Source of the DNA: an uncultured Ruminiclostridium sp. | Lineage (GTDB): Bacteria > Bacillota > Clostridia > Oscillospirales > Ruminococcaceae | Direction: 5' to 3' | DNA: 49,232 nt | Assembly (NCBI GenBank): GCA_947629925.1 | Contig: CANRFO010000019.1 | Coordinates: 1-49,232, forward strand | Position numbers and translations under genes: made by a program | Shown here: one piece after another, positions 3,754 through 35,180 of the stretch | How the letters are laid out: every line of letters starts with the position of its first letter | Numbering within the stretch: the stretch's first letter is position 1 | The notes under the pieces: model-generated | What the model was told of the DNA's origin: nothing | Seen by the model: only the letters and a program-made list of their open reading frames with translations | The model's database searches: none

Positions 3754-3891
3754 ATAAACCTCAATTTTAGCATTCAGCTAAATTTGAATTGATTAGACAT
3801 AGTTTTTAGTTACCGCGACACTACTAAAGAAGCCACAAATCATTTTAAGAACATTGACTACTATATTCATATGTATACAACTGTTATGTAA

Positions 3892-18369: not shown

Positions 18370-18830
18370 TATGTAAAATCTCGGCTCTGCACATAATTGC
18401 ACAGAGCCGTGACTTCCTATTTTAAGCGGATAAATCCGCTTTTGCCTGTAAAAACTGTCGTATTTGCCCCGCAACCCCGACTATATGGGAATACTTCAGA
18501 CTGTAATCGGCATTACATCATGGGAATCTCACCCTTTTGTGGTTCTCACAAAACCGCCCTCACTACGTTGGATTATGACCAGACGGAAGTATCATTATCC
18601 CCTCGTGCAGATCATCGCGCACTTGTTGCCACACAAGTTTTGAGAGCCGCTCTTTATCGCTCGGTTCGGTATCATATTACGGAATTTAATTGAGCCGTAG
18701 CTCAGTCGGCTAAGTGCCGCGCTTGTCCGATTATTGATATTGCGAACATCATGGCGAGATGCTCCTGTCGCTTTCAACCACTATGGGCTGCACGAGGGAA
18801 AGTATCTGAAATACTGATATTTGATTGTCA
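18370..18830 (-). other. long noncoding leader upstream of mazF with hairpins
   Basis: About 460 bases without a credible gene; frames in it look random. A hairpin CGGCTCTG...CAGAGCCG (18382-18409) and a perfect one AAGCGGA-TAAA-TCCGCTT (18424-18441) lie closest to mazF. Further up is a GCCGTAGCTCAGTCGGC dyad (about 18693-18709) that resembles the 5' part of a tRNA but has no anticodon or T-arm after it. The length and the helices suggest an untranslated leader or replication/transfer signal. No known riboswitch class was matched. Confidence 0.4.
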
Positions 18831-19170: not shown

Positions 19171-20271
19171 ATGGCAAGACGTGGCGAGAACATATATAAA
19201 AGAAAAGACGGGCGTTGGGAGGGAAGATATAGAAACGGGATTAAAGCAGACGGAACAACAAAATATTCCTCAATTTACGGGAAAACCTATGCTGAAGTTA
19301 AAACCAAACTGTCTGAAAAACGCGCTAAATCTTCTGTTTCAACCATTCCAAAAAATTTGACGTTAAATAATCTTTTTACAATGTGGTTTGCGGAAATTCG
19401 TATGAAAGTAAAGGAATCCACATATATGAATTATTGTCTGAAATTTGAAAAGCACATAAGCTCGTCTATCGGCAAAACACACTATGACAAATTGACGACT
19501 GAAAATCTTAACGCATTCATTCAGTGCAAGTTGTCAAGCGGTCTTTCGCCAAGGTATTCCGCTGATATTGCGGGAGTAATAAAGTCTGTATGCCGCTTTG
19601 CGAAAAGACGTTTCGGGTATGATGATAAATCGGAATTTATAACAATGCCAAAAGGCAAATCAAAAGAAAAAGAGCTGCTCAGCAAGGCGGAGCAGTCTAA
19701 GCTTAATCATTATTTAATTATTAATCCGACAGTTACCAATGTCGGTATTTTATTGTCATCGGCTACCGGCATCCGCATTGGGGAACTTTGTGCGCTGAAA
19801 TGGGAAAACATTGACCTTGAAAAAGGAGTTTTATCCGTCAGAAATACTGCCCAACGTATTAAAAATCTCAGCGGTGAAGCCTCAACAAAGTTGGTTGTCA
19901 CCTCACCCAAAAGTAACTCATCTGTTAGGGAAATACCTTTACCCGAATTTATTATACCTCTTTTAAACAAGTTGAAAGCAAGCAATGACTGCTACCTGCT
20001 TTCGGGAACAAGGGGTATTGTTGAACCGAGAGTGATGCAGTATCGTTTTAAGCGTATTCTCAATGAGTTGCAACTGTCAAATGTATCTTATCATTCACTG
20101 CGCCATTTGTTCGCCACTAATTGCATAGCTCTCGGTGTTGATGTAAAGACGCTTTCTGAGATTTTAGGCCATAGCAGTGTCGAAACCACTCTTAACCGTT
20201 ATATCCATTCATCAATGGAACGCAAAGCGGCATATATGAAAACCATTTCCACAATCTTTACAGTGGCATAA
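19171..20271 (+). CDS. int: Tn916-type tyrosine recombinase/integrase
   Basis: 366 residues. GGGGG sits 8 bases before ATG 19171. N-terminal AP2-like arm-binding domain (NIYKRKDGRWEGRYRNG, ~7-45), core-binding SAM-like domain (~60-160, TYMNYCLKFEKHI), and catalytic domain with R202 (TGIRIGELCALKW), K247, H308 and R311 (YHSLRHLFATN), H334 (ILGHSS) and nucleophile Y344 (LNRYIHS). All active-site residues are present, so it should be functional. The family integrates or excises elements of the Tn916/ICE type. Here no cargo other than the gene itself lies between the inverted repeats, so it may act as a local invertase or be a stranded integrase. No Xis-like gene is seen next to it. Confidence 0.93.
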   Translation: MARRGENIYKRKDGRWEGRYRNGIKADGTTKYSSIYGKTYAEVKTKLSEKRAKSSVSTIPKNLTLNNLFTMWFAEIRMKVKESTYMNYCLKFEKHISSSIGKTHYDKLTTENLNAFIQCKLSSGLSPRYSADIAGVIKSVCRFAKRRFGYDDKSEFITMPKGKSKEKELLSKAEQSKLNHYLIINPTVTNVGILLSSATGIRIGELCALKWENIDLEKGVLSVRNTAQRIKNLSGEASTKLVVTSPKSNSSVREIPLPEFIIPLLNKLKASNDCYLLSGTRGIVEPRVMQYRFKRILNELQLSNVSYHSLRHLFATNCIALGVDVKTLSEILGHSSVETTLNRYIHSSMERKAAYMKTISTIFTVA

Positions 20272-21354: not shown

Positions 21355-21486
21355 TTACTTTTTAAAGTCTTTAACGCTGTCAGGCACTTTGGGCTGATAA
21401 CTTAGGAAGTGACATGCAGTATTATTGGATTTTATAATACTCTTTTTTGCCATAGCTGCTACCGCTTTCAAAATTGTTTTTTTCAT
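21355..21486 (-). CDS. agrD: AgrD-type autoinducing peptide precursor
   Basis: 43 residues. AGGAGG lies 7 bases before ATG 21486. The amphipathic N-terminal leader begins MKKTILKAVAAMAKKS. The core region is NNTACHFLS, and the acidic-then-basic tail starts YQPKVPDS and ends KDFKK. Aligning with the known AgrD plan (for example TCPWII followed by HQPKVP in C. difficile) places the thiolactone cysteine in TACHFLS, five residues before the cut, with YQPKVP as the recognition tail. AgrB would cleave and cyclise it. It is on the same strand as agrB, agrC and agrA but is separated from agrB by 1.5 kb containing a decayed IS110, so co-transcription with agrB is now uncertain. Confidence 0.88.
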   Translation of the reverse strand: MKKTILKAVAAMAKKSIIKSNNTACHFLSYQPKVPDSVKDFKK

Positions 21487-21559
21487 GCTTAAACCTCCTC
21501 GTATAATATAAAGTAGTAGTTTTTAGAGTTCCTCTCCAAGAACTATGGTATAATTGTTT

Positions 21560-21700
21560 AGATGCCGTGGATTGGTTTTCACCTCCTACCACAAGAAGGT
21601 TTCATTAAGGCTCCGACCACAGTCTCTATGCAATTTGTTAATCAGTTAGATACCGCTAGAACGAGGTTACAAGTGAATTGAGCAACTGTGTATCTAAACA
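21560..21700 (+). ncRNA. candidate bridge RNA of the IS110 element
   Basis: An extended -10 promoter (TGGTATAAT, 21547-21554) precedes it. IS110 transposases use a structured RNA made from the noncoding left end, whose loops pair with target and donor DNA. Here a stem TTAGATAC (21646-21653) with GTATCTAA (21690-21697) encloses an internal loop, and CCGTGG...CCAC pairings lie at ~21566-21592. Position, promoter and stem-with-loop fit a bridge RNA. Which loop binds target or donor was not assigned. The transposase is dead, so the RNA would be a relic or could act with a related transposase elsewhere. Confidence 0.5.
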
Positions 21701-21730
21701 GCGTCAAAATATTTTATTGGAAGTATCTTG

Positions 21731-22835
21731 ATGTTTTTTGTCGGCATCGATGTGGCAAGGACAAGCATGACTGCTTTATTATCAATTTTGAGGGAATCGC
21801 TCTCTATTATGTTTTCACCATCGCTAACACCCTCGGCGGGCTCAACGAGCTGCTTTATAAAATTCAGTCCGTTTCTTCAGATTTGAGCAAAATTAAAGTA
21901 GAACTTGAGATCACAGAACATTAGCTTCAATCTACTCGGATTCTTGTTGAACAACGGTCTACCAACCTGCATTCTGAATCCGCTACACACTAATCTCTAT
22001 CAAAAAAGTCTGTCCCTCATAAAAACCAAAACAGATAAGACAGACGCGTGTGATTACTTCTATGCTAATGTCTTATGCGGAACTCAAACCCTACACAAGT
22101 ACATTTATATCACATAGAAAATCTAAAGTCACTAACCAGATACAGATTAGACAAAGTTTCTCAAAGAGCCAAGCTCAAATCTTTTGTCGCAAGACTTGTA
22201 AATATCCTTTTCCCAGAGCTTGAAAAACTTGTTCCTTCACTTCATATGAAATCTTTTTATGTCCTTCTCAGCGAGTTCCCTTTGGCCGTCTATGTTGCCG
22301 ATGCTCATTTTGCAAGACTTGCAAATCTAATCTGCAACGCCTCTAAAGGACATTACAGAAGAGACAAGGCTATTCAAATTCGTGAAGCCGCAAGGCATTC
22401 TGTCGGCTCTGTTATACTGGCAAAAACACTTGGGATAGAGTACACCATCAAGCTAATTGGAGAACTTACCGAGGAAATGGATGAAATACAAACTGAAATC
22501 AAAAAGATCGTTGATAAATCCAGAACAATACTTACGACTATTCCCAGACTTGGTTACAAAACTGTTGCTGTCATTCTTGCCGAAGTCGACGATTTCTCAA
22601 ACGTTAAAAACCCTTACAAACTGTTATGCTCAAATGGAGAAGCGAGGTTCAAAATATCTTCGCTTTGCTCTTTATAACGCTGCAAAATACGTTTCCAAAT
22701 AGGACAAGACCTTTTCTGGTTATCTCGCCAAGAAATGAGCCAAGAGCAAGCAATACAATGTCACTCTTTCCCACGTTGCCAAAAAACTGGTCAGAGTGTT
22801 ATTCGCCTTGAAAAGGTCACACTTGACTTACCAAC
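21731..22835 (+). pseudogene. IS110-family transposase, several frameshifts
   Basis: The ATG at 21731 starts MFFVGIDVAR, the RuvC-like opening of IS110 DEDD transposases, then shifts frame to GKDKHDCFIINFEG. Later pieces read NLLGFLLNNGLPT-ILNPLHTN and KTDKTDACD, then a long stretch from 22075 (ELEKLVPSLHMKSFYVLLSEFP, RREAARHSVGS-type sequence, TIPRLGYKTVAVILAEVDDFS), then MEKRGSKYLRFALYNAAKYV in another frame. At least four frame changes and stops break it. The conserved C-terminal serine region is only partly readable. Non-functional. Confidence 0.88.
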
Positions 22836-22873
22836 CGGCGATGTAACATATTTGACTCAGCATCCTTTTTTTC

Positions 22874-22895
22874 AGGCATCATTTGATGCCTTTTT
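22874..22895 (+). terminator. intrinsic terminator after the IS110 relic
   Basis: AGGCATC (22874-22880), loop ATTT, GATGCCT (22885-22891), then TTTT. It acts on the plus strand. On the minus strand no T-run follows, so agrB transcripts could still read through toward agrD. Confidence 0.75.
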
Positions 22896-22952
22896 GCCGT
22901 GTCCTTTTTCTCATCAATTATCATTAAATTTTTTTAACTTTCTTTATTTTGA

Positions 22953-23531
22953 CTATTGACTTTTAATAGTTAGTCTTAATGTTATTGATATAAAAACAGC
23001 ATCCGCTGATAATGACCAAGACACAGCATAAAAAACAGATTTAATTTCAAGTAAAAAAGAAGATGACATAACTATGATAGTTATTATAGTAATTAAAATT
23101 GAAAAAATATGATACTTCCTTTTTTCGTTTTGGTCAAGAGATTTGTTTTCGCTCTCCACCGGTGCAAAAACAAAAATTACAAATGAAGAAATAAGTGCTA
23201 CAATTCCAACAATAATATCAACCAACGGGTTGTTGAAATAATATAAAAAAATTAACGGGATGTAAGTCAGCACAGATACAATAAGACATTTCCCTGATGT
23301 TTTGCAGTGAAAGCCTCCCGTATATTGTCGCAACACCTTATATACAACTACAAAAATGAAACTCAACAAAATAGTTCTTGTTATTAAAGCAAGTATAAAA
23401 ATAATAAAGAAAAATACCACTTGTTGAAGAAATATTTCTAATCCATATATGTATGCATCTTGTTGATCTATCTGTACAATATTATTTGCAACAAGCAATG
23501 CCGAGATTTTTTTTGATAATTTTTTTAACAT
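22953..23531 (-). CDS. agrB: AgrB-type membrane peptidase for autoinducer processing
   Basis: 192 residues with about five to six membrane helices. The catalytic pair is visible: H75 in YTGGFHCK and C82 in GKCLIVS, seven residues apart as in staphylococcal AgrB (H77/C84). AgrB cuts the AgrD tail and forms the thiolactone ring at the membrane. ATG 23531 has GAGGAAA upstream. Its own promoter with response-regulator boxes lies at 23551-23620, separate from agrCA. The partner peptide gene is beyond the IS110 relic. Length is normal for the family, and nothing suggests loss of function. Confidence 0.92.
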   Translation of the reverse strand: MLKKLSKKISALLVANNIVQIDQQDAYIYGLEIFLQQVVFFFIIFILALITRTILLSFIFVVVYKVLRQYTGGFHCKTSGKCLIVSVLTYIPLIFLYYFNNPLVDIIVGIVALISSFVIFVFAPVESENKSLDQNEKRKYHIFSILITIITIIVMSSSFLLEIKSVFYAVSWSLSADAVFISITLRLTIKSQ

Positions 23532-23550: not shown

Positions 23551-23620
23551 ATTATGCATTTTTTAAGTTAAATTGTCAACACTTTTTCGGCTGAGCGGTC
23601 AAAAAAAGGGATTGAGCGGG
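23551..23620 (-). promoter_or_regulatory. agrB promoter with tandem AgrA/LytTR-type boxes
   Basis: On the minus strand: -35 TTGACA (23574-23579), 17-base spacer, -10 CATAAT (23551-23556). Upstream are two boxes, CCGCTCAGCCG (23588-23598) and CCCGCTCAATCCC (23608-23620), with the CCGCTC cores 21 bases apart, i.e. two helical turns. The proximal box ends 8 bases from the -35. The same boxes, spacing and gap occur at 26207-26275 on the other strand. LytTR regulators such as AgrA bind tandem direct repeats of about this size and spacing. Confidence 0.85.
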
Positions 23621-23626
23621 AAAATT

Positions 23627-24922
23627 TTATATTTTTAATAAAACGATCGTTTTAAAAATTTCCCCATCAGCTTCCCAAGTTACTTCTCCGTTGTATTTTA
23701 ATGCAATATCTTTAATGATCTGACTTCCGTATCCATGTTGGAATTTATCGGGTTTAGTTGAACTAAGCAGATGTAATGTCCGTTCAAGTACTATTCCGCT
23801 TGAATAGCTGTTTTCTGTATATACAGTCCAATATGCATTATATTTGAACATTTTAAATTTGACAAAAGCCTTTTCAGATTGTTCAGCAGCTTCAAAAGCG
23901 TTATCGATAACATTTGAAATCAGCGACGATAAATCCAATACATCCATTTCAACAGCTTCTAAAGGCTCTATGTAATAATCAAAAGCTATTTGCTTTCTTT
24001 CTGCTAAAGCAATCTTGGATGTGATTATCGCATCAACGATATCACTGCCGGACTCAATATCGATATGCGGTATTGATTTTTTCACCTTTCCTATTGCTTC
24101 ATCAAGCAGTTTGATTGCGCTTTCTTTTTTCCCCTGTTCAATTAATGTACAAGCATATGTTATGTGTTTATTCATATCATGATTTAATTTTTTTATTATC
24201 TCAGAAGTCCTATTCTGCAGTGCTATTCTATCTTGTAATGTTTCATACCCTGATTCTAAAACATACAGCTTCTTATCACGTTGAAACCCAAAACAAATTT
24301 CCGTAAAGAAATAGATCACAACCATACTCATAACAAAAAATGAAGATGAAATGATCAAAAATAATAAAGAGGTTTCTGCGTCTTGCTGCTTTTGTGAATA
24401 TATTACAATGAAAGCTGTGGTTATAATAAGGAAAACCAGCATAACCGAATTATATAAGACCCAGATTTTTGGGCGCATATCATATTGTATTTTTTTAAAA
24501 CCCTTATAAATCAATATAAATATCAATATATCAAAGGCTTTTATTATAAGGCATACAAATAGTCTTAACCAAAATGAAGAATAGAATACATTGAGAAAAG
24601 CTTCATTCAGAACCAATGAAATGAGGACCCCGAAAATAATATCGATTATTGACAGAACGTAAAGCGCCATAAGAGCATAACCCGATTTAATTATTAAACG
24701 TTCTTTATACAAAACCGAGCTTACAACAAATATATTCAAAAATCCGAAAAGAGTTTTTAAAACAATGTTGTAATTTGATAATATAAATGTAAAAAAGGAT
24801 AAAAAAATTACCCCTGCAATAAAGGGTAAAATTCCCTGAAACCTTCTTTTTAACAATTTATCAAAAAACAAAATAATTACAAAATCTTCAATTACACATA
24901 ATAAATAATCCAAAATCTGCAT
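23627..24922 (-). CDS. agrC: AgrC-type sensor histidine kinase (GHKL family)
   Basis: 431 residues. Residues ~1-205 carry six membrane helices (sensor). A coiled linker leads to the phospho-acceptor H248 in LNHDMNKHI. The N-box is ISNVIDNAFEAAE (~335-347) and the G-box is HGYGSQIIKDIA (~396-407). This is the HPK10/AgrC layout. It should detect the cyclic peptide outside the cell and phosphorylate AgrA. It lies 11 bases downstream of agrA (agrA then agrC) and upstream of agrB, an order different from the staphylococcal BDCA. Complete, with no missing motif. Confidence 0.93.
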   Translation of the reverse strand: MQILDYLLCVIEDFVIILFFDKLLKRRFQGILPFIAGVIFLSFFTFILSNYNIVLKTLFGFLNIFVVSSVLYKERLIIKSGYALMALYVLSIIDIIFGVLISLVLNEAFLNVFYSSFWLRLFVCLIIKAFDILIFILIYKGFKKIQYDMRPKIWVLYNSVMLVFLIITTAFIVIYSQKQQDAETSLLFLIISSSFFVMSMVVIYFFTEICFGFQRDKKLYVLESGYETLQDRIALQNRTSEIIKKLNHDMNKHITYACTLIEQGKKESAIKLLDEAIGKVKKSIPHIDIESGSDIVDAIITSKIALAERKQIAFDYYIEPLEAVEMDVLDLSSLISNVIDNAFEAAEQSEKAFVKFKMFKYNAYWTVYTENSYSSGIVLERTLHLLSSTKPDKFQHGYGSQIIKDIALKYNGEVTWEADGEIFKTIVLLKI

Positions 24923-24933
24923 ATCTGCCGCTC

Positions 24934-25668
24934 CTAAGCTTTATTTGAAATTACACCTGTTATTTCCTTAAATAAATCTTTTCTGCTGCGTTTGCTTAAA
25001 GGCAAATGCTCCTGATTGCTCATAACAATTTCTCTGTCAAGAATCTCAAAAATTTTATTTACGTTTATGATATAATTTCGGTGTGATCTGTAAAATCCGT
25101 TCGGTATACATTTTTGAGCAATTTTTTCAAAAGTTCTTTCAGTCAATATGTAAGTTTCTTTAAATGTATGAAGTATAATGTTTTCATTACAATAATGAAA
25201 ATAAAAAATATTGCTGAAAGGTATTCTTTTTGTCACACATATTCCGTCTGATATAACCTCCCAAAAAGTGTTTTCAGGCTGATTTTCAGAATAATCATTT
25301 AACAGTCTTGTCAACGCTTCAAGGCAGCTTTCAGTATTGAATTCTTTAGGTATAAACGCATTTATGCCGATAGGTATAGCTGAATACACCTCATCTTTGT
25401 ATGCAGTCATAAACGCGAGGCAAAATGTAGAATTGATGTTCCTTAATTTTTTAGCTAAGTCCTTGCCGTTAATTGACGGCATATCTATATCGAGAATAAC
25501 AATATCATAAATGTTGTCATTTTCAAACTCTCTCAAAAGTTCTTTTTCATCATTAAACATTACTAAGCTTGCATTTATTCCTGCTAATTTTATTGCCTTT
25601 GACATAAGAAGCTTCATAGTAGTGGTTAAGAACTCCGCATCATCATCGCAAACAGCAATTTTGATCAT
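24934..25668 (-). CDS. agrA: AgrA-type response regulator (REC + LytTR)
   Basis: 244 residues. Receiver domain 1-~125: acidic pocket CDDD (7-10), phosphorylation site D60 in VILDIDMP, T/K region MTAYKD and PKEF. The LytTR DNA-binding domain covers the last ~105 residues, with GFYRSHRNYIINVNKI and LPLSKRSRK, the beta-strand elements that contact tandem repeats. It should bind the CCGCTC boxes found before agrB and before the secreted-protein genes. Its ATG overlaps the stop of the XRE gene (ATGA), so the two are translationally coupled. Confidence 0.93.
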   Translation of the reverse strand: MIKIAVCDDDAEFLTTTMKLLMSKAIKLAGINASLVMFNDEKELLREFENDNIYDIVILDIDMPSINGKDLAKKLRNINSTFCLAFMTAYKDEVYSAIPIGINAFIPKEFNTESCLEALTRLLNDYSENQPENTFWEVISDGICVTKRIPFSNIFYFHYCNENIILHTFKETYILTERTFEKIAQKCIPNGFYRSHRNYIINVNKIFEILDREIVMSNQEHLPLSKRSRKDLFKEITGVISNKA

Positions 25669-25994
25669 TTGTTATCATCACCTTTATATAAATTGCTTGC
25701 ATAACGAACAATCTGCTCCATATCGAACACCTTGTCCTTCGGGCAGTCCTTGATAATATCATAAAAGCCGACAGTCGGATGCTGTTCGCCCGTAAGAAGA
25801 TATGTTGGATCAATACCCAGCTTTTCATGTGCAAGAATTATTTTTTCAATTGAAAGTCGGCATCTGCCGCGCTCAATGTCGCCATAAAAGTTCAATGACA
25901 TTTCAAGCAATAAAGCCGTTTCTGCCTGAGTCAAATGCTTTGATTTCCGCCACTCTTTTAAGCGAGCCCCTATATCGTGTAATATATCATTCAT
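25665..25994 (-). CDS. XRE-family regulator at the head of the agrAC operon
   Basis: 109 residues from ATG 25994 (MNDILHDIGARL), preferred over upstream ATG 26072 because GGAGGG lies 11 bases before it and the HTH follows at once: RLKEWRKSKHLTQAETALLLEM and DIERGRCRLSIEKII. After the HTH, LGIDPTYLLTGE and a C-terminal helical region (~65-109) resemble regulators that precede agr genes in Clostridia. It ends in an ATGA overlap with agrA. It probably sets agr operon level; the ligand, if any, is unknown. Confidence 0.85.
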   Translation of the reverse strand: MNDILHDIGARLKEWRKSKHLTQAETALLLEMSLNFYGDIERGRCRLSIEKIILAHEKLGIDPTYLLTGEQHPTVGFYDIIKDCPKDKVFDMEQIVRYASNLYKGDDNK

Positions 25995-26122
25995 ATCAGA
26001 AGCGTCCCTCCAAGGAAACATATATTCAGCACTAATATTATATATCGTTTTTAGAAAAAAATCTACCAGCAATATATTGGTATTTTATAAGTTTTTAACA
26101 ATTATTTATTGGTGATTATTCT

Positions 26123-26151
26123 TGACAATCTGGATTAAAAATGGTATATTT
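26123..26151 (+). promoter_or_regulatory. possible second plus-strand promoter
   Basis: TTGACA (26123-26128), 17-base spacer, TATATT (26146-26151), in the gap between the divergent XRE gene and the secreted-protein gene. It lies upstream of the box-controlled promoter and could give basal expression. In AT-rich sequence such a match may be chance. Confidence 0.4.
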
Positions 26152-26206
26152 AATTTGAAACAGACTATTCAGATTTATTTAGTTATTTTTTGCAGAATAT
26201 ATTTTT

Positions 26207-26275
26207 CCCGCTCAACCCCAAATTTTTCCCGCTCAGCCCAAAATGTGTTGACATTCGACTTTATTAGTGTAAAAT
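26207..26275 (+). promoter_or_regulatory. quorum-controlled promoter with tandem AgrA/LytTR-type boxes
   Basis: Boxes CCCGCTCAACCCC (26207-26219) and CCCGCTCAGCCC (26228-26239), cores 21 bases apart; then, after 8 bases, -35 TTGACA (26248-26253), 16-base spacer, -10 TAAAAT (26270-26275). The sequence GTGTTGACA and the geometry match the agrB promoter almost exactly. It reads toward the secreted protein at 26611. A ~330-base leader without an open frame follows, comparable in position to the P3 transcript of staphylococcal agr. Confidence 0.85.
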
Positions 26276-26353
26276 TTATATTAAAAGTTAACTTTGGAGA
26301 GCTCTAACCACACGTTGCAATTTTAGCAGGCTATAATAATTACATGTAAAAAT

Positions 26354-26610: not shown

Positions 26611-27150
26611 ATGAAAAATTTTAAAAAACCGTGCTTAAAGAGAGCATGCATTATTAGTATAATGAGTTTAATTACTATAAACATTTTAGGTATCGCCTGT
26701 TATTCAACTACATTAGTTGGTACAACATATGGTGCACAAGGTAGTCCGATTTCAGGATACGATGGAACGACTGCATATACTAAAGAATTTCAATATGTGT
26801 ATTCGTATACTGGATCCACTAATTTCAATTCCACTGGAAGTGTTTATGCAGCTGCTAATACTGATAGAGGGGGAACAGGTGGTGGTTCAATACATGTAAA
26901 CATTCAAGAATATAATCTTTTTACATGGCTAAACCATTCTACTCAGCCTGCGTATGGCAACACAGTCGTAATAGAAAACGTTCCCAGTGCTAGAACATAT
27001 AGTTATGGCACATCTCAAGATGGAAAATGTAGTTATACAAACGGTAAAACATATAGAGGTAAATTTGAAGTAGAATTATTATGCGCTCCAAGCGATGCAT
27101 CAAAAGTTACCGTTAGTCCATATACACGCATCGAAATGTACAAAGATTAA
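26611..27150 (+). CDS. secreted beta-rich protein, likely quorum-controlled
   Basis: 179 residues; AGGAGGTAACC precedes ATG 26611. Signal peptide ~1-35 (basic start, then IISIMSLITINILGIACYS). The mature part is rich in G, S, T, Y and aromatic residues with no lysine-rich helix, suggesting a beta fold. It contains a QPAYG motif (about residues 109-113) shared with the smaller secreted protein at 31240, where the same motif stands near the C-terminus. The form resembles DUF2712-type or bacteriocin-like secreted proteins found beside ABC transporters, but this is tentative. First gene after the quorum-controlled promoter. Function unknown; a toxin or surface peptide is plausible. Confidence 0.7.
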   Translation: MKNFKKPCLKRACIISIMSLITINILGIACYSTTLVGTTYGAQGSPISGYDGTTAYTKEFQYVYSYTGSTNFNSTGSVYAAANTDRGGTGGGSIHVNIQEYNLFTWLNHSTQPAYGNTVVIENVPSARTYSYGTSQDGKCSYTNGKTYRGKFEVELLCAPSDASKVTVSPYTRIEMYKD

Positions 27151-27165
27151 CAACAGCAGATTGAT

Positions 27166-27741
27166 ATGTATTTTGACTCTGGGATATTGACGCTAATAAT
27201 GGCATTGTTGGATATAAGTATTCTTTCAATACTTTTTAGATTCAAGGCGATAAGTGGAATCCAGTTTTCCATGGTTTTTGCAGGTAATTTTATTTTCTTT
27301 TGGATTTTTAACAATGTCTTTCCTGACATACCTATTAATAACCATATACCAATTATTAAAATGGAAACCTTTGAAAGTAGAGAAATAAGCGAATGGATAT
27401 GGTTAAGAGACTACTTCGATGCATTTAGAGATCAAACCATCTTGAAAAATTTTTTTCAAAATAATTTAATTCCAAGTTTATCTATATTATGTTCATCTTT
27501 TTTTTACACATTAGGTTTGAAATGGCATAGAAAAGTAAAATGGGCATTAATTTCTGGAATGATGCATTTTGCCGTTTTTATCGCGTTTCCTCTTATTGAG
27601 AATAGAATATTTGACGGTTTAGTTTACAAAGTTAATATGCCATTCCTCTATTTTGGATTATTTTTCTATTTTGTCGGATATGCTATTTGTAAATTCTTTT
27701 TGTATCTCAAGAAAAAATACTTTATTATAAATGATAAATGA
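27166..27741 (+). CDS. integral membrane protein, possible immunity partner
   Basis: 191 residues starting 15 bases after the secreted-protein gene. Four to five hydrophobic segments: ILTLIMALLDISILSILF (~8-25), FSMVFAGNFIFFWIF (~34-48), LSILCSSFFYTLGL (~102-117), ALISGMMHFAVFIAFPL (~126-142), LYFGLFFYFVGYAICKFFLYL (~162-182). No catalytic motif. Position directly after a secreted peptide gene, and before an ABC transporter, is typical for bacteriocin immunity or export helpers. That role is inference. The ribosome-binding site is weak, so it may depend on translation of the preceding gene. Confidence 0.65.
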   Translation: MYFDSGILTLIMALLDISILSILFRFKAISGIQFSMVFAGNFIFFWIFNNVFPDIPINNHIPIIKMETFESREISEWIWLRDYFDAFRDQTILKNFFQNNLIPSLSILCSSFFYTLGLKWHRKVKWALISGMMHFAVFIAFPLIENRIFDGLVYKVNMPFLYFGLFFYFVGYAICKFFLYLKKKYFIINDK

Positions 27742-27837: not shown

Positions 27838-28506
27838 ATGCATCTGAAGCTTGAAAACATAGGCAAAATCTACAATCCCAAAACCGATTACGCCGTTACT
27901 GCCTTAGAGGACGTAAATCTTACAATTCCGCAAGGCTCATATATTGCTCTTATGGGAGTGTCAGGTTCAGGGAAATCCACCCTTCTTAATATTTTAGGTT
28001 GTCTTGACGAACCCACCTCCGGGCGTTACTCCATAGATGACGAGAGCGTATATCGGCTTGATGTATGCGATATAAGAAACCGTTTTATAGGCTTTGTTCT
28101 GCAAAGCATAGGGCTCCTTCCCGACAAGACAATACTTGAAAACGTTTCCTATCCTCTTCTGGTTAGCAGAGATATTCCCTACAAGGAAGTAAAACCAATG
28201 GCTATGAAAGCATTGGAACGTGTGGGAATGGCAGAGCTTTCTCACAGATTGGCAGGGCGTGTTTCAGGAGGTCAGCGTCAGCGTGCCGCTATCGCAAGAG
28301 CTATTGTGGGAAATCCCGAAGTTATATTGGCCGATGAGCCGACCGCCGCCCTTGACAGTAAAACGGCAGGGGAAATAATGGAGCTGTTTAAAAAGCTTAA
28401 CAGCGAGGGCAGAACAGTAGTTATCGTAACTCACGATATAAAAGTAGCCGAAAAGTGCAATAAGATAATCTATGTACACGACGGCAAGATTTCGGAGGAA
28501 GTATGA
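27838..28506 (+). CDS. MacB/LolD-type ABC transporter ATP-binding protein
   Basis: 222 residues with AAAGGAGAG before ATG 27838. Walker A GVSGSGKST (~40-48), Q-loop VLQSIGLLPD, signature VSGGQRQR (~141-148), Walker B VILADEPTAALD (~161-172), H-loop VTHD. The class (LolD/MacB/BceA-like) drives mechanotransmission permeases with large extracytoplasmic domains. The two following genes, each overlapping by ATGA, encode such permeases, so all three make one complex. The codon use and GC are higher than in the two genes before it, suggesting a different origin for this transporter block. Confidence 0.95.
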   Translation: MHLKLENIGKIYNPKTDYAVTALEDVNLTIPQGSYIALMGVSGSGKSTLLNILGCLDEPTSGRYSIDDESVYRLDVCDIRNRFIGFVLQSIGLLPDKTILENVSYPLLVSRDIPYKEVKPMAMKALERVGMAELSHRLAGRVSGGQRQRAAIARAIVGNPEVILADEPTAALDSKTAGEIMELFKKLNSEGRTVVIVTHDIKVAEKCNKIIYVHDGKISEEV

Positions 28507-29678
28507 AATATTTATTTTTACTTCTTTCGGTTTTTAAAAGTTGGTTTGTCAAAAACCGCAAATTTACAGTTTCGGTAATGCTGATGTTCACCCTTTCAGC
28601 GTTTGCCATGCTTTTCACCGCCACGGTAGTGGGAAATGAGTTTTTATGGTCGTCGGAGGAGGAAAATAAAGCTGCAGCCACCTTCTATTTTTATACAGAG
28701 CAAAATTCCGCAGATAAAGACAGACTTGTTCTGAGCGAGAATATTCTTGACGCGGTTTCCTCATCCGAAAGCAACGATATAGACCGAGTTGAGGTTGATA
28801 TTGAGGTAACAGCGGATAAAATATACGACAAAGAAAATATATCGCTTTATGTTATGCCTGTTTATAAAAACGATTATACAAACAAAATATGGGTGATAAT
28901 GGGCAATGGTTCTTCCAAGATCGCTGAGTTATATAACAGTGACCAGCATATCATATCCGGTACAGGCATATCCGCAGAAAATCTTGACGCGAAGGAAAAG
29001 GTAATAGTTCTTCCCGAAAAATACGGAGTTGAAACAGGGGACAGTGTTTTTATCTTCGGCGGGGAATTTCGAGTGGTGGGAATAACCTCGGACAAATACG
29101 CAAGGATCAGCTCTTACTTTATTGAACAGGACGCTGTTTCAGGCGGCGGCACTCTCTGCGCTGTAAATTCATTTGAATTTGACAGACCCATGACTGATGA
29201 GACATATAACCTGATAAGTGACGCCGTAAAACGTACATACGGCGAAGACAAAACGCTTTCTTTTCAGAAAATGGAGCTGTCAGATGAACCGAATACGATT
29301 TATATAGTTTTTATGTCCATAATCGGCGCTGTTGTCGCTATATTTACCATAAGCGGCATATATTATCCTGCCATTCAGCTTTGCAAAGAAACAACGCCAA
29401 TGCTCTCTGTGTTTAAATTGTGCGGCATGAGAACAGCTCCTGCCTTTGGACTATTGTTCATATCAATGTACTTCTGCCTTGCCATATCCTTTGGTATTGC
29501 TTCTCTTATGCTGATTTTCTCCCGGAAGATCTTGGCAGGAATAATATCCTCCTTTGATATACGCGGAATTTTCTTTATCCTTTCGGTCGCGATCTATATA
29601 TTGGTCACCTTTGCGGCAATGCTTCCTCCTATAATGAAGCTTGCAAAATCACAGCCCATTGAGGAGGTGGCGATATGA
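28503..29678 (+). CDS. MacB/FtsX-type ABC permease, first of two
   Basis: 391 residues. One N-terminal membrane helix (~21-43, FTVSVMLMFTLSAFAMLFTATVV), a ~220-residue extracytoplasmic domain, then three C-terminal helices (~258-282, ~300-330, ~345-375). This one-plus-three topology is that of FtsX/MacB-like permeases. It overlaps the ATPase gene by four bases. Probably heterodimerises with the next gene's product. Substrate not shown; peptide export or resistance is the usual role in such loci. Confidence 0.85.
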   Translation: MKYLFLLLSVFKSWFVKNRKFTVSVMLMFTLSAFAMLFTATVVGNEFLWSSEEENKAAATFYFYTEQNSADKDRLVLSENILDAVSSSESNDIDRVEVDIEVTADKIYDKENISLYVMPVYKNDYTNKIWVIMGNGSSKIAELYNSDQHIISGTGISAENLDAKEKVIVLPEKYGVETGDSVFIFGGEFRVVGITSDKYARISSYFIEQDAVSGGGTLCAVNSFEFDRPMTDETYNLISDAVKRTYGEDKTLSFQKMELSDEPNTIYIVFMSIIGAVVAIFTISGIYYPAIQLCKETTPMLSVFKLCGMRTAPAFGLLFISMYFCLAISFGIASLMLIFSRKILAGIISSFDIRGIFFILSVAIYILVTFAAMLPPIMKLAKSQPIEEVAI

Positions 29679-30727
29679 CCGATGTAAAGAAAACTTTCGC
29701 TTTATTGAAAAGTGAGCTTCAAGGCAGCCGAGGCGGAGAATCGGTGGTCGTGATAATGCTCACCGCCGTTATGATATTCGCCAACATTATGCTGGTATCC
29801 GTACTTGAATATATCGGCTCTGTCATTTACTTTACCAATCCCAACGCCCGTAACGCGGTAAAGGTGACAGCCCTCAGCGAAAACGCCGATTTTGATACGA
29901 TAAAAAACGACAGTGATGTGGAATTTTGCTTTAAGGTAACAGAATACAGCGAACGCTTCAGCACATTATACGCCGTATCTGAAGAATTTTTTGACAGCAG
30001 TCTGTCCTTCTTCAGCAAAGACGATATAAACGCTTTGAATCAGGTTACCGACGGCGTAACTCCCATTTTTGTCAGCAGCAGCCTGGAAATGCAGGCGGGA
30101 GATACAGGACAGCTTTCAGACGGCAGTCAATATCAAGTGGCGGGCGTGATACCTGATGATGTAAAATATATTCTCCTCACATTAGTTTCTTATGAGGATT
30201 TTGCCGTTGCTCCCGATAGCGGACAGTTTACCTATGCCGTTCCGACTACAAACCCTATGCTGTATGTACGATTAAAAAACAACGCTGACATTTCCGCTTT
30301 TCAGGAAAGATATAAGGACATCGACTGTCTGATGACCCCCTTTGACCCTGACAATATTATCTATTTAAACTTTTCCTCGTCAGTCACAATTTCCGTCATA
30401 GGAATATCTGTGTTTATTGTTTCATTTTTTGCGGTTATAATCAACTGTTACCTTGTTTTCTGCGGAAAGAGGCGGTATTATCAGACCCTTATAACAGTGG
30501 GCGGAAGAAAAAAGCTTTTCCTGCAAAACTCCCTTATTATAAAAGCAGTTCAGCTTATGATAAGCGCCGCTGTTTCTACACTTATACTGGTAATATTAAA
30601 CGTCACGCTGAAAGGCGAATTCATTACTGTTCAAAGCGGGCTTTTGTCTGCCGCCTTTGCTGCTCTTGTTATGGCTTTATCTCAGTTTATGCTTATAGGT
30701 TGGCTTAAAGGGATAAAGACGGTTTAA
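29675..30727 (+). CDS. MacB/FtsX-type ABC permease, second of two
   Basis: 350 residues with the same topology: helix ~23-47 (VVVIMLTAVMIFANIMLVSV), extracytoplasmic domain to ~235, then three helices (VTISVIGISVFIVSFFAVIINCYLVFC split around ~240-265, ~290-310, ~325-345). It overlaps the previous gene by ATGA. Sequence similarity to its partner is low, as in heterodimeric permeases. The 30728-31127 region after it has no clear terminator and no supported frame; I see only AT-rich sequence there before the leader element of the next secreted-protein gene. Confidence 0.83.
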   Translation: MTDVKKTFALLKSELQGSRGGESVVVIMLTAVMIFANIMLVSVLEYIGSVIYFTNPNARNAVKVTALSENADFDTIKNDSDVEFCFKVTEYSERFSTLYAVSEEFFDSSLSFFSKDDINALNQVTDGVTPIFVSSSLEMQAGDTGQLSDGSQYQVAGVIPDDVKYILLTLVSYEDFAVAPDSGQFTYAVPTTNPMLYVRLKNNADISAFQERYKDIDCLMTPFDPDNIIYLNFSSSVTISVIGISVFIVSFFAVIINCYLVFCGKRRYYQTLITVGGRKKLFLQNSLIIKAVQLMISAAVSTLILVILNVTLKGEFITVQSGLLSAAFAALVMALSQFMLIGWLKGIKTV

Positions 30728-31239: not shown

Positions 31240-31638
31240 ATGATTAAGAAAAAATTTATCGCAGTATGTATATTTATAGTACTTACAGTTTGTATCATCA
31301 GCGTTGCTGTATATGCAGCAGAATCGGCTTTTAGTTTTCCCTTGCTCGATAAAGGTCAGTCTTCATTTTCTTCAGCAACACAAAAAAAAGACTATTATAA
31401 TTTTGCCACGGTTAATGTTGATAGTAATTCTTCAGTCTCCAGTACAGCTTATATGTATGTTTATATATTTAAATCCCAAAATGCAGGCAACGCAATATCT
31501 GATGGAGAAATGGTAACTTATGCTCCACAACATTTCAGGCTTTTATATAATGAACAACCAGCTTATGGTTCATACGTTTATTTAGGTGGACTGAGAAATT
31601 ATTATGGGTCCTCACTATATGGTACATGGGAGCCTTAA
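31240..31638 (+). CDS. small secreted protein, DUF2712-like in form
   Basis: 132 residues; AAGGAG sits 8 bases before ATG 31240. Signal peptide ~1-27 (IKKKFIAVCIFIVLTVCIIS, likely cut after YAA). The mature 105 residues are S/Y/N-rich, with NEQPAYGSYVYLGGLRNYYG and ending GTWEP. The final pattern (beta strand, aromatic, W-x-P end) is close to the C-terminus of DUF2712 proteins, small secreted proteins next to ABC transporters in Firmicutes; recognition is tentative. QPAYG is shared with the 179-residue protein. A strong terminator follows, so it is a single-gene transcript. Confidence 0.7.
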   Translation: MIKKKFIAVCIFIVLTVCIISVAVYAAESAFSFPLLDKGQSSFSSATQKKDYYNFATVNVDSNSSVSSTAYMYVYIFKSQNAGNAISDGEMVTYAPQHFRLLYNEQPAYGSYVYLGGLRNYYGSSLYGTWEP

Positions 31639-31667
31639 ATAATAATTTTTAAGGTTAAAAGCAAGAA

Positions 31668-31699
31668 CAGACACAGAAATTTCTCTGTGTCTGGTTTTT
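31668..31699 (+). terminator. intrinsic terminator after the small secreted protein
   Basis: CAGACACAGA (31668-31677), six-base loop, TCTGTGTCTG (31684-31693), then GTTTTTG. Perfect 10-bp stem. Confidence 0.88.
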
Positions 31700-31782
31700 G
31701 CTATTTCAAATTAGTTCAAATTTGCTATAATGTTTTAGTTGCTCGTATATGGCAGTTTAAAATTACAAAGGAGCGATCCTGT

Positions 31783-32913
31783 ATGAATGTTTTAAAAGCG
31801 ATTAAAGCAGCGTCAGCATTTCTTATATTTTCTTTATCTCTCACCTCCTGCTACCCCGACGGAAGTCGGGTCGTGGTGGATACTGATATGATCGAGCTGC
31901 GAAAGCAGGCGGATGGAATATATAATGTGTCGGTCAGCGAGGATATGACCCTGCCCGAAGCACCGCCTCAGGTAAATATCCTGAAAGTTCAAAGAAAGAG
32001 ATTTGACGACCTGAAGAGCATACAGGAAATTTTCCTTAAAGGGCGGATCATAGCCGACACGGTTACCATTGAGGATGAGCAGTATTCCGCAGGCGAAACG
32101 ATGAGTGTTTATCTGACCGAAGACAAATTCAACCTCATCGTGGGGAGAGGCGCACTGTCATTTTCATACGCCGGGGAAGATGAGCATATGGAGCACATCG
32201 AATATTATATCTCAGTGTGTAAGTCATATTGTGCTGAGGAGATACTGACAAAGGAGGAAATAGACGGCTTCCCTGCGGAAGATGCAAAAAGCTTGGCAGA
32301 GAAAGCGCTGACAGACGCAGGAATAACAAATTTCAGGCTGAAAAACACATATGCCTTTACCAAAGACGAGGGAAGAAGATTGAGTATCGCCATGCGGCGC
32401 GACCATAATATTTCAGAAGAAGACGAGTGCTATATTTTACAGTATGACTTTAACTATGAGGGGATAAACATGGTGGATGAAGGTATGAATATTCCCGACA
32501 GGGAGAACATCGGCACCTTTAACATATCACACTGCACCTCTGTGTTCATAGCTGTAAAGAAAGATGAGGGAATAGTATATTTTTCAGGACAAGATGTGAC
32601 AGACAGCGAATATGAGGTAATGGAAACCGACGAGATCAAATTTAACGCTGCGGCAGCGTTTAAGGTGCTGTTAGACAGTTACAGCTCGTCAAGCCGGCTT
32701 TACGCTTTGGAATATTACGATTGCGAGCTTGTTTATATTCCTGTTCAGATGCCCGATGAGTACAGCTTTATTCTTGAGCCTGCATGGAAGTTTACATACA
32801 GATACGATCCGAACGGCGATATTGTTGACGATGAGGAGCCCACTGAAACCTGCCGCGCCCGTTTATCCAAATATATAAACGCTCTGACAGGAAATCCGTT
32901 GGAAATGTACTAA
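31783..32913 (+). CDS. lipoprotein next to an ABC-2 transporter (DUF6034-like, tentative)
   Basis: 376 residues from ATG 31783; AAAGGAG lies about 8 bases upstream, and the frame before it lacks a signal. The N-terminus is a lipoprotein signal (AIKAASAFLIFSLSLTSCYPDG; lipobox LTSC). The mature protein is acidic and extracellular, with a C-terminal beta-rich part (LEPAWKFTYRYDPNGD). Similar lipoproteins occur with ABC transporters in Ruminococcus and have been grouped as DUF6034; I am not certain of that name. It is followed after 18 bases by the two permeases and ATPase, so it is likely a sensor or substrate-binding part of that system. Confidence 0.7.
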   Translation: MNVLKAIKAASAFLIFSLSLTSCYPDGSRVVVDTDMIELRKQADGIYNVSVSEDMTLPEAPPQVNILKVQRKRFDDLKSIQEIFLKGRIIADTVTIEDEQYSAGETMSVYLTEDKFNLIVGRGALSFSYAGEDEHMEHIEYYISVCKSYCAEEILTKEEIDGFPAEDAKSLAEKALTDAGITNFRLKNTYAFTKDEGRRLSIAMRRDHNISEEDECYILQYDFNYEGINMVDEGMNIPDRENIGTFNISHCTSVFIAVKKDEGIVYFSGQDVTDSEYEVMETDEIKFNAAAAFKVLLDSYSSSSRLYALEYYDCELVYIPVQMPDEYSFILEPAWKFTYRYDPNGDIVDDEEPTETCRARLSKYINALTGNPLEMY

Positions 32914-32931
32914 TGAGAAACGGAGGTAAAA

Positions 32932-33687
32932 ATGCTGAGAGCATATATGTATAAGCTGCTCCGCTCTCCCCTGATGTGGCTGGGAATTTTTGGCTCGGCG
33001 TCATTGATGGTTTTCGCAATGTGCTGTTCATCAGCGATGCCGGCGAAAGATGTGGAAATGCGGCTGGGTCTTTTTCTTGACGTTGATGTTTACAGAAAAA
33101 TAATCGCCGTTTTTGCGGCTTTGCCTTTCGCCGCAAATTTCGCCGATGAATGGAACAACGGAGTTACAAATCAGCTTATCACCCGCGTCGGTGTTAAGAA
33201 ATACGCTGTTACAAACGCGGCGATATGTTTTGTCACCTCATTTTTAGCGGTATTTGCAGGAATAATGATATTTCTTATCGGATATTCCTTTTTTTACCCT
33301 GTTTACAGCGAGGGTAACGAGCGCGCATGGCCTTACGCCGAACTGCTGTCTTCGGGGTTACCTTGGATTTATATTATTCTCCGTACTTTTTTCTTTTCCC
33401 TCAGCTGCGCTGTATGGTCGATGATGGGACTTATGCTGTCGGCGTTCTTTCCAAATAAATATGTGGCAATCTGCTCCCCGCTTATAGCTTGCTACGCAGT
33501 AGAAAGAATAACCATTCAATTTCCCGATATATTCAATCTGTGGTATCTTTCACTTTCTATAAATACGATAGGCAATTCAGTATTTACATTCATATATACA
33601 TTTTTCATCTTCGCCGCTTTATCTGCGGTATTCGCAGCGGTGTTTGTGATAACAGTGAAAAGGAGGACAGGAAATGAAATGGTTTAA
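32932..33687 (+). CDS. ABC-2-type permease, first of two
   Basis: 251 residues with CGGAGG 6 bases upstream of ATG 32932. Six membrane helices: ~16-33, ~57-74 (IIAVFAALPFAANF), ~98-123, ~145-170, ~178-195, ~215-240. The NFADEWNNGVTNQLITRVGVKKY stretch after helix 2 is typical of ABC-2/BcrB-like permeases. It overlaps the next gene by 14 bases. Family members export peptides or give bacteriocin resistance. Confidence 0.82.
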   Translation: MLRAYMYKLLRSPLMWLGIFGSASLMVFAMCCSSAMPAKDVEMRLGLFLDVDVYRKIIAVFAALPFAANFADEWNNGVTNQLITRVGVKKYAVTNAAICFVTSFLAVFAGIMIFLIGYSFFYPVYSEGNERAWPYAELLSSGLPWIYIILRTFFFSLSCAVWSMMGLMLSAFFPNKYVAICSPLIACYAVERITIQFPDIFNLWYLSLSINTIGNSVFTFIYTFFIFAALSAVFAAVFVITVKRRTGNEMV

Positions 33688-34537
33688 ATCCGCCTTTTGT
33701 ATCGGTATTCAGGATTTCAGAAAATGGCGGACAGATTACCGTATCTGGGCAATAGCTCTGCTGATGCTGATGATGGTTCTTATCTATATCGACGATATGA
33801 AAAAAATATCAGCGTATCTTGAAACGCCGCTGCCTGTATGGATCTTCCCGTTTCTCTACTGTCAGTTTCACACAAAGCTGATATATACTCTCCCTGTTGT
33901 AATGCTGTTTTGCAACGCTCCCTTCACCGACCGAAATCAGATATTTGTAATAATGCGCTCGGGAAGGAAAAAGTGGCTTGCTGGACAGATACTTTACATA
34001 ATCGCCGCAAGCGGTATTTACTATTTATTTCTCCTTATAGCGTCTGTTATCGGCTCTGTTTTAAACGGCGGGGAAATTTCCCTTGAATGGGGAGAAACGC
34101 TGACATCCATTCAGGGCAGCAGCGCACTTACAGCCCAACTTAACTGCAATTTTGTATGGATCCCGCCGATAATAATCACATACTTCACGCCGCTTTTGGC
34201 AGTGTGGTTCACATTTCTCAATTCATGGTTATGCGGAGTATTTATAGGGTTGATCATCTTCCTGCTCAATCTTGTTTCCCAAACCAAAGCGCTGGGATTG
34301 TTCACGGCGTCAGCGGTTGTAGTGCTGAGTGCCCTTGTTACCAACGGGTTGAGAGTCAATCTGGTAATGTATTCCCCTGTCTCGTGGAACACGCTGGATA
34401 TGATAGACGTAGGCGGAACCACCATCTACCCGTCATTCACCTACTGCATAACATTTTACATCATTTCACTTGTGATACTCACGGCGCTTATACTTATTTT
34501 AGGCAGGAAGAAAAGTCTTGATAATAAGGAGAACTGA
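33674..34537 (+). CDS. ABC-2-type permease, second of two
   Basis: 287 residues, six to seven membrane helices, starting in the overlap with the preceding gene; AAAAGGAGGACAGG precedes the ATG. TDRNQIFVIMRSGRKKWLAGQILYI after helix 2 again marks the ABC-2 topology. Overall length and topology parallel its neighbour, although sequence is diverged, as in heterodimeric transporters. It ends just before the ATPase gene. Confidence 0.82.
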   Translation: MKWFKSAFCIGIQDFRKWRTDYRIWAIALLMLMMVLIYIDDMKKISAYLETPLPVWIFPFLYCQFHTKLIYTLPVVMLFCNAPFTDRNQIFVIMRSGRKKWLAGQILYIIAASGIYYLFLLIASVIGSVLNGGEISLEWGETLTSIQGSSALTAQLNCNFVWIPPIIITYFTPLLAVWFTFLNSWLCGVFIGLIIFLLNLVSQTKALGLFTASAVVVLSALVTNGLRVNLVMYSPVSWNTLDMIDVGGTTIYPSFTYCITFYIISLVILTALILILGRKKSLDNKEN

Positions 34538-34538
34538 T

Positions 34539-35180
34539 ATGGAATACTCCATTGAGATAAAGGATTTAATCAAAAAATTCAAGGAAGCAACGGTGCTTGA
34601 TAACATCAACGTTTCATTTGAGAAAGGGAAAGTCCACGGGCTTATCGGCAGGAACGGCTCAGGCAAAACTATGCTGATGAAGTGTATCTGCGGCATAGTC
34701 CCGCCCACCTCGGGAGAAACGATTGTAAACGGTAAGGTTATCGGCAAAGACGTAGACATTCCCGAAGGCGTGGGCGTAATAATCGAAACACCGGGCTTTC
34801 TGCCGGGTTATTCGGGTTACAGCAATCTTAAATTTCTCGCGGCAATCAACAACAAAATCGGAAAGGAAGAGATAAGAAATGCAATAAAAAGCGTTGGGCT
34901 TGACCCTGATGATAAAAAGAAAGTAGGAAAATATTCCCTCGGTATGCGGCAGCGGCTTGGACTTGCACAAGCTGTTATGGAGGACCCTGAACTGCTTATC
35001 CTTGACGAGCCGATGAACGGCTTGGATAAGGACGGGGTGAAGGATATGAGAAGGTATCTTCTTGATTTGAAAACGCAAGGTAAAACGATTCTGATAGCTT
35101 CTCACAGCGCGGAGGATATTGAGGTGCTGTGTGATACGGTACACGAAATGGATAAAGGGTGCATGAGTAAGGTAAAGTAA
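34539..35180 (+). CDS. ABC-2-type transporter ATP-binding protein
   Basis: 213 residues from ATG 34539, chosen because AAGGAG lies 7 bases before it. Walker A GRNGSGKT (~37-44), signature YSLGMRQRLGLA (~137-148), Walker B LLILDEPMNGLD (~157-168), H-loop ASHS. BcrA/CcmA-like. With the lipoprotein and two permeases it completes a four-gene transporter, a common form of self-protection or peptide export. The family is distinct from the MacB-type ATPase at 27838. Confidence 0.95.
   Translation: MEYSIEIKDLIKKFKEATVLDNINVSFEKGKVHGLIGRNGSGKTMLMKCICGIVPPTSGETIVNGKVIGKDVDIPEGVGVIIETPGFLPGYSGYSNLKFLAAINNKIGKEEIRNAIKSVGLDPDDKKKVGKYSLGMRQRLGLAQAVMEDPELLILDEPMNGLDKDGVKDMRRYLLDLKTQGKTILIASHSAEDIEVLCDTVHEMDKGCMSKVK

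Follow-up and report, generated by a model that had tools for sequence, protein, structure and literature searches.

We analyzed a 49,232-nt stretch of DNA from an uncultured Ruminiclostridium sp. (assembly GCA_947629925.1, contig CANRFO010000019.1, positions 1 to 49,232; hereafter the window), which carries an agr locus. Two opposed promoters of this locus, one in front of agrB and one in front of a divergent operon for a secreted-looking protein and ABC transporter genes, share a double box just upstream of the -35. We concluded, with a probability of roughly 0.86, that these double boxes are the operators of the LytTR-type response regulator AgrA (24934-25668), which would act on both promoters. 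The mechanism is already known in kind from AgrA, VirR and HdrR/BrsR; what appears to be new is a mobile two-promoter circuit in Clostridia, with predicted agrBD autoinduction, and a natural series of AgrA-box pairs.

Both promoters contain the pattern CCGCTCA-N14-CCGCTCA-N12-TTGACA, at 23619-23574 on the minus strand and at 26208-26253 on the plus strand (read directly from the sequence, with rechecked coordinates; Table 1). The repeat period is 21 bp and box 2 lies 21 bp from the -35 in both copies. An earlier sequence-only reading had described tandem boxes at 21-base spacing, in the same phase, before agrB and the secreted-protein locus, and this arrangement was found in both copies. Its distance of exactly 8 bases was incorrect, as CCGCTCAGCC and GTGTTGACA are separated by 6 bases in both, and its statement that the boxes are identical holds for box 1, whereas box 2 differs (GACC in the minus copy and TCCC in the plus copy). 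The two bases ahead of CC in box 2 are GA and TC, respectively, which makes the boxes near-identical. At both promoters, direct repeats of ∼9 bp are separated by ∼12 bp (the 21-bp period) just upstream of the -35. The same 9-12-9 layout upstream of the -35 was reported for published LytTR operators, for example ACCACTTAT-12-ACCGCTTAT of BrsR (PMC6193735; this and all other papers are cited from portions of their text). Judged by layout, the double boxes of the window have the anatomy of a LytTR operator, with two repeats 21 bp apart and a -35 20-21 bp beyond. This anatomy is general to LytTR regulators and is not peculiar to agr.

To be informative about a regulon, the double box has to be placed against its frequency elsewhere. 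The pattern CCGCTCA-N21..33-GTGTTGACA gave two matches in the window vs. none in 100 dinucleotide shuffles. The whole genome (2,373,662 bases in 44 contigs, 99.75% complete) contained the strict double box at two places, both at the agr locus (control, 0). The double box plus -35, with up to 3 mismatches in 20, was found at the same two places alone (reversed control, 0), and the regulon that is legible from sequence therefore comprises two promoters; a more degenerate third site may exist. The bare double box at up to 2 mismatches is judged largely noise because it occurred at 41 places vs. 17 in the reversed control; of these, the two known ones alone were exact, and six others had a single mismatch. 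The related genomes G333 and G240 each have two exact ACCRCTCA double boxes, at the agrB and divergent promoters, and no others; one- and two-mismatch matches elsewhere in these genomes look like noise. With up to 3 mismatches allowed, the TGCAACTCGG double box was present once in G040, upstream of agrB, and was not found in G355. The sequence-only reading had named a common double box unrelated to agr as a refuting outcome; the double box proved not to be common, with both matches at agr here and both likewise at agr in G333 and in G240.

We compared the promoters of related agr loci (designated by L numbers). In the contig search for AgrA, 180 relatives were confirmed, and the best 80 of them were retained, five at 38-58% identity and the other 75 at ≤29%. 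AgrA was also searched in 396 genomes of the family (E ≤1e-40), 394 of the order and 391 of the class (E ≤1e-45), which are partly overlapping sets; 10, 2 and 2 genomes, respectively, gave matches, the window's own genome being counted each time. L057 and L058 duplicate the contigs of L046 and L045, respectively, and each contig was counted once. Only the target promoter entered the counts for L056 (no agrB found, agrC shortened) and L059 (a contig that may be chimeric, with agrC broken close to the start), and agrB is absent from the 4,972-base contig of L149. L154 and L155, which encode AgrA-like proteins (∼27% identical) and gave no agrB match, were omitted from the box-pairing and fixed-rule counts.

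A paired repeat of period 21 was read by eye in 15 promoters of 11 loci (two each in the window, L045, L046 and L060; one each in L056, L059, L149, L150, L153, L156 and L157). In the GACC register, box 2 lies 21 bp from the -35 in nine of these promoters and 20 bp in the other six. A fixed rule (repeat ≥7/10, TTG 20-21 bp on, -10 ≥3/6) was applied to 21 regions from 13 loci, each delimited by the ends of genes or at ∼250 nt. It found a repeat at period 21 in 13 regions vs. 1.02 expected from shuffles, and in 0 to 3 regions at each of the remaining periods from 14 to 29. Twelve of the 13 repeats are the boxes assigned by eye, and the one in L056 is another repeat. Both L060 promoters fail the rule since box 1 has drifted; their boxes were assigned by eye. 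An earlier version of the rule, with 150-nt regions centered on the boxes, gave 12 of 15 vs. 0.22 expected, and the 21-region version is the fairer one. As far as sequence comparison indicates, related clostridial loci retain this geometry ahead of agrB or of the divergent operon, and their box letters shift with AgrA. The agrB promoter of the more distant locus L153 (3840-3930) has three boxes in 21-bp steps.

The box letters vary by locus, e.g., CCGCTCA, CCACTCA, CCACTTA with a drifted partner, ATGCATTT, TGCAACTCGG and CCATTCGG. At any one locus, the boxes of the agrB and target promoters agree: over the four two-promoter loci their mismatches summed to 5. None of the 24 pairings scored lower and one tied, because L045 and L046 have the same agrB boxes. 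The LytTR motif of AgrA is HRN in the window, L045, L046 and L056, where the boxes end in CTCA (CTTA and TTCA in L056). In L059 and L150 the motif is CRG, with Gly replacing Arg227, and the boxes contain TGCA, whose first base lies 20 bp ahead of the -35 at each of the two loci. Arg227 is conserved in the remaining nine loci with boxes, and there the boxes are of the NNCC type (GACC, TACC, TCCC, TGCC or ATCC). Arg227 of the window AgrA presumably corresponds to R233 of Staphylococcus aureus AgrA. DNA binding by the S. aureus R233A mutant was reported as not detectable (PMC4227749). We rate the apparent correspondence between Arg227 or Gly and box type as suggestive because the sample consists of two related AgrAs. 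Rarity in the genome, geometry and letters that track AgrA support the proposal that the boxes are local AgrA sites, with a predicted regulon of agrB plus the secreted-protein/ABC locus.

Several points weigh against this interpretation. The fixed repeat rule was chosen after the boxes had been seen, and 8 of the 21 regions lack a repeat under it (two in L060 and one each in L150, L151, L152, L153, L156 and L157). For the last six loci it is the upstream or divergent region that has no repeat by the rule, and the target promoter is therefore seen only in the closer loci (window, L045, L046, L056, L059, L060 and L149). The AgrAs of L059 and L150 are 45% identical, hence their Gly residues are non-independent events, and the S. 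aureus residue numbering was mapped by hand, not by a tool alignment. Moreover, an insertion sequence (IS) remnant parts agrD from agrB in the window, and the autoinduction loop of this genome is uncertain, possibly impaired, because of this separation.

The XRE-family regulator at the head of the agrA-agrC unit is another conceivable reader of the boxes. Its gene adjoins one box and is present in five of the six closest loci (window, L046, L056, L059 and L060). The sixth, L045, has both double boxes but no close XRE relative, only one distant family match (18 bits) elsewhere in the locus. L150 and L156 have the agrB box and gave no match in the XRE profile scan, which detected weak matches (16 to 31 bits) in L149, L153 and L157. 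The XRE proteins of L046, L056, L059 and L060 are 71-86% identical, yet box 2 reads GACCACTCA, GACCGTTCA, ATGCATTTC and GACCACTTA. XRE therefore does not account for the changes in the boxes, and a conserved palindrome-like element near the upstream promoter is a better candidate for its site. We consider it highly improbable that the XRE regulator reads the double boxes. The boxes could also be read by another LytTR regulator of the genome, with AgrA working elsewhere. A profile search found six LytTR genes (and four AgrB matches) in the genome, i.e. five besides agrA, and LytTR boxes are alike in build. This reading is very unlikely given that the double box plus -35 is absent from the rest of the genome and that the box accompanies this AgrA across species. 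In addition, two other LytTR loci have 21-bp repeats of their own, ATTCGTCCCC in L050 and the ACCTGTCCTCCG type in L052, which suggests separate specificities. These came from a scan for 21-bp repeats ahead of promoter-like sites around L049 to L053 (L054 was left out), which gave direct repeats at L050 3250 (-) and at L052 6444 and 8835 (+), AT-rich chance matches among them, and none around L049, L051 or L053. The L050 repeat lies upstream of an ABC transporter that adjoins a kinase and a regulator.

Operator function of the boxes for AgrA is compatible with a further possibility, namely that AgrA binds its sites here and the loop no longer autoinduces, the IS remnant having uncoupled agrD and left a receiver-only or weakly signalling relic. 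The agrB-agrD gap is 1,466 bp in the window vs. -41 to +41 bp from the agrB end in six relatives, and the broken frames of the IS110-like element run in the opposite direction. On the other side, the agrD frame is intact with AGGAGG before its start, agrB, agrC and agrA cover almost the full length of their family profiles, and a promoter of its own or read-through could serve agrD. We regard an uncoupled relic as a real possibility, though less likely than not.

With the double boxes taken as AgrA operators, the following circuit is proposed. AgrB would make a cyclic peptide from AgrD, and AgrC would sense it. Phosphorylated AgrA would occupy both repeats, next to each other on the same face of the DNA, and would recruit RNA polymerase at the adjacent -35. 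One promoter would raise agrB (in relatives also agrD) and close a positive loop, and the other would switch on the divergent secreted-protein/ABC operon. The regulon would consist of these two promoters, and the circuit would be cargo of a mobile element resembling an integrative and conjugative element (ICE).

The S. aureus agr system was reported to have paired direct repeats upstream of two opposed promoters, with -35/-10 spacers of 18 and 20 in P2 and P3 (PMC4227749). The window resembles it in its AgrB, AgrD, AgrC and AgrA homologues, in the paired repeats at two opposed promoters and in the predicted division between signal production and effector output. In contrast to S. aureus agr, the boxed agrB promoter of the window is predicted to drive agrB only, agrD being displaced; agrC-agrA-xre lies between the two promoters as a unit of its own, a secreted-protein/ABC operon forms the output and the -35/-10 spacers are 17 and 16 bp. 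No RNAIII was found at the second promoter, since the Rfam search of the whole window at gathering scores gave one match, a pemK RNA. The sequence-only reading had likened the locus to P2/P3 with a completely different gene order and target set. The window system has the defining parts of agr without belonging to the staphylococcal subtype: AgrB, AgrD, the AgrC GHKL kinase and the AgrA LytTR regulator all score above cut-off, and the NCBIfam staphylococcal AgrC model reached 20.5 of 500 bits on the window AgrC, far under its cut-off.

VirR boxes of Clostridium perfringens and RgaR sites of Clostridium difficile, the latter upstream of agrB1D1, were described as two imperfect direct repeats just upstream of the -35, with critical helical phasing (PMC2838878; PMC10602386). 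The window regulator is likewise LytTR-type with two direct repeats just upstream of the -35; unlike in the VirR/RgaR systems, its agrA and agrC are linked to the boxed agrB promoter. In the part of PMC10602386 cited here, VirR does not activate agrBD, AgrD1 does not act through RgaS-RgaR and the agr signal is said to be without feedback on agrBD; clostridial Agr systems were suggested in this 2023 study to be generally non-autoregulatory. The agr locus of C. difficile R20291 was under-represented in an agrA mutant (PMC3754575), and a clostridial loop therefore has precedent. The Streptococcus mutans HdrR repeats (ACCTCTTAG/ACCACTTAA) and BrsR repeats (ACCACTTAT/ACCGCTTAT) have 12-bp spacing and lie 8 bp from the -35; the two regulators combine autoregulation with bacteriocin targets, and their repeat letters vary while the geometry is highly conserved (PMC6193735). 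The window repeats share this 9-12-9 anatomy upstream of the -35, whereas HdrR/BrsR are described as membrane-inhibitor systems whose regulators have no receiver domain. The C. difficile phage phiCDHM1 carries agr genes, of which AgrD, AgrB and AgrC were named (PMC3901668). Like phiCDHM1, the window has agr genes on a mobile element in Clostridia; unlike it, the window has a complete BDCA set, and an ICE-like element carries this set together with predicted operators and a target operon. Among the open-licence PMC papers listed in literature searches, no title or opening of an abstract pointed to an ICE-borne agr cassette in gut Clostridia for which AgrA boxes had been mapped, which is weak evidence of absence.

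The loci described here predict autoregulation for the mobile agr cassette family, opposite to the general statement in the cited portion of PMC10602386, and two short promoters provide a means of testing this prediction. With a natural series of AgrA-box pairs whose frame hardly changes, DNA recognition by LytTR proteins also becomes open to testing, and the pairs could serve as orthogonal parts in gut anaerobes. A more speculative view, which we think rather doubtful, is that these loci form a family of self-contained, mutually insulated quorum circuits on mobile elements. Each circuit would have a specific ring peptide, an individual AgrA-box letter code within a fixed frame of 21+21 bp, and just two promoters, through which the mobile element would fire a secreted effector when carriers are dense. 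The family would then amount to a naturally occurring collection of orthogonal regulator-operator pairs, in which AgrA R227 (S. aureus R233) would be one specificity switch.

Table 1. Positions of predicted promoter elements and genes of the agr cassette in the window.
Feature	Position	Strand	Basis or remark
agrB promoter with double AgrA box (predicted)	23551..23621	-	Sequence pattern; geometry kept in relatives
 box 1, TCCCGCTCA	23621-23613	-	
 box 2, GACCGCTCA	23600-23592	-	
 -35, TTGACA	23579-23574	-	
 -10, CATAAT	23556-23551	-	Spacer 17 bp
Divergent target promoter with double AgrA box (predicted)	26206..26275	+	Sequence pattern
 box 1, TCCCGCTCA	26206-26214	+	
 box 2, TCCCGCTCA	26227-26235	+	
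 -35, TTGACA	26248-26253	+	
 -10, TAAAAT	26270-26275	+	Spacer 16 bp
agrD, 43-aa signal precursor (TACHFLS-YQPKVP region)	21355..21486	-	tblastn and TIGR04223
Degenerate IS110-like element between agrB and agrD	21500..22960 (ends approximate)	+	Broken frames
agrB, membrane peptidase processing the autoinducing peptide, 192 aa	22953..23531	-	Pfam AgrB PF04647, 128.5 bits (cut-off 23)
agrC, GHKL sensor kinase, 431 aa	23627..24922	-	Pfam HATPase_c_5, 62 bits (cut-off 22)
agrA, receiver plus LytTR response regulator, 244 aa	24934..25668	-	Pfam Response_reg 53.1 and LytTR 55.2 bits, both above cut-off
XRE-family regulator	25665..25994	-	Pfam HTH_3; MNDIL start chosen by reference to relatives
Secreted-looking protein, 179 aa, no family	26611..27150	+	AgrA target (predicted)
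Membrane-protein-like gene, 191 aa, no family	27166..27741	+	Target operon
ABC ATPase, LolD/MacB type	27838..28506	+	Pfam ABC_tran, 111 bits; closest NCBIfam models under cut-off
Two permease-like genes (28503-29678 and 29675-30727)	28503..30727	+	Target operon
Second operon	31240..35180	+	Small secreted protein ending GTWEP, lipoprotein-like gene, two membrane-protein-like genes, ABC ATPase

Directly upstream of the boxes of the target promoter is a second promoter-like site, TTGACA-17-TATATT (26122..26150, plus strand), which points towards the AgrA boxes and is not part of the AgrA arrangement. Near it (region 26060-26150) lies the imperfect palindrome ACCAGCAATATATTGGTAT at 26065-26083. 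Both have counterparts beside the XRE gene in L046, L056, L059 and L060. The palindrome is a candidate XRE operator, and the promoter-like site is a candidate second, AgrA-independent promoter into the target operon.

The agrD gene, missed by the sequence-only reading, has an intact frame preceded by an AGGAGG site and is not adjacent to agrB. It is 65% identical to L045/L046 AgrD by tblastn and scored 38.7 bits with TIGR04223 (cut-off 19). Matches of the IS110-like element to DEDD_Tnp_IS110 and Transposase_20 were weak and all under the Pfam cut-offs; no second copy was found in the genome. Seven AgrD proteins all carry C-x-x-x-[ST]-YQPK[VA]P, and the letters of the ring, which we take to be of five residues, differ across all seven (CHFLS, CCFWS, CYFMS, CWGWS, CFGLS, CRCLT and CMYWS). 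In L060 (9563-10337), agrB and agrD are inverted relative to agrC and convergent with it, and the boxed promoter is retained. L049 (G000:C4:145000-160000) has two agrB copies (3204-3776 and 9649-10236) with identical first 60 residues, each directly preceding a gene for a secreted-looking protein of ∼1,000 residues.

The labels "secreted," "lipoprotein" and "membrane" reflect sequence judged by eye. The first permease-like gene of the target operon is weakly MacB/FtsX-like (MacB_PCD and FtsX matches sub-threshold), and the second gave nothing useful. The last four genes of the second operon have homologues behind the boxed promoter in L045 and L056; in the window they come after the first operon. 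The divergent operons differ and yet appear to hold a common theme, a secreted protein with ABC genes, as in the window, L045, L056 and L060; L046 has a lipoprotein-like gene at the contig end, L059 an ABC exporter and L149 a secreted protein. Four of the six secreted proteins end in G-x-W-x-P. No family model fits the six, no bacteriocin model is among the matches listed for them, and the one usable predicted structure is an all-beta fold without a specific match. Our guess is that the target is an effector, bacteriocin-like or acting on contact, accompanied by genes for transport or immunity. A lactococcin-972-type bacteriocin locus was considered and rejected on curated ABC and bacteriocin models, as TIGR03608 gave 193.7 of 254.85 bits. 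The target leader of the window is ∼330 nt long, and the predicted target transcripts of the window (26280-26300), L045 and L056 open with a common A[AG]GTTA[AG]CTTTG. The L045 and L056 leaders also have TGTCTGATCAGCATAA in common; these shared sequences may be a leader element.

The cassette lies between an integrase (19171-20271; Phage_integrase) and a type IV secretion system (T4SS) coupling protein (36274-38037; T4SS-DNA_transf), beyond which come a DUF3991/Toprim protein, a MobL relaxase and ArdA. By this gene content, the agr cassette appears to be carried as cargo on an ICE-like element. The L045 cassette occupies the same interval in the opposite orientation, as judged from coordinates. 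Integrase, coupling protein (TraG) and relaxase (Mob) are 76, 80 and 67% identical between L045 and the window vs. 36-44% for AgrA, AgrB and AgrC, so the signaling genes seem to diverge more than the backbone where the two are comparable. L060, in which agrBD is turned round, has an integrase 78% identical to that of the window. No backbone genes were matched in the other compared loci, several of which are short contigs, except distant recombinases (23-24%) in L056. Rabbit, deer and other animal sources of some related records point to a gut association. The pemK RNA match (66.5 bits; 18518-18598, minus strand) lies upstream of a gene at 17991-18356 (-), presumably PemK-like; 81% identical in L045.

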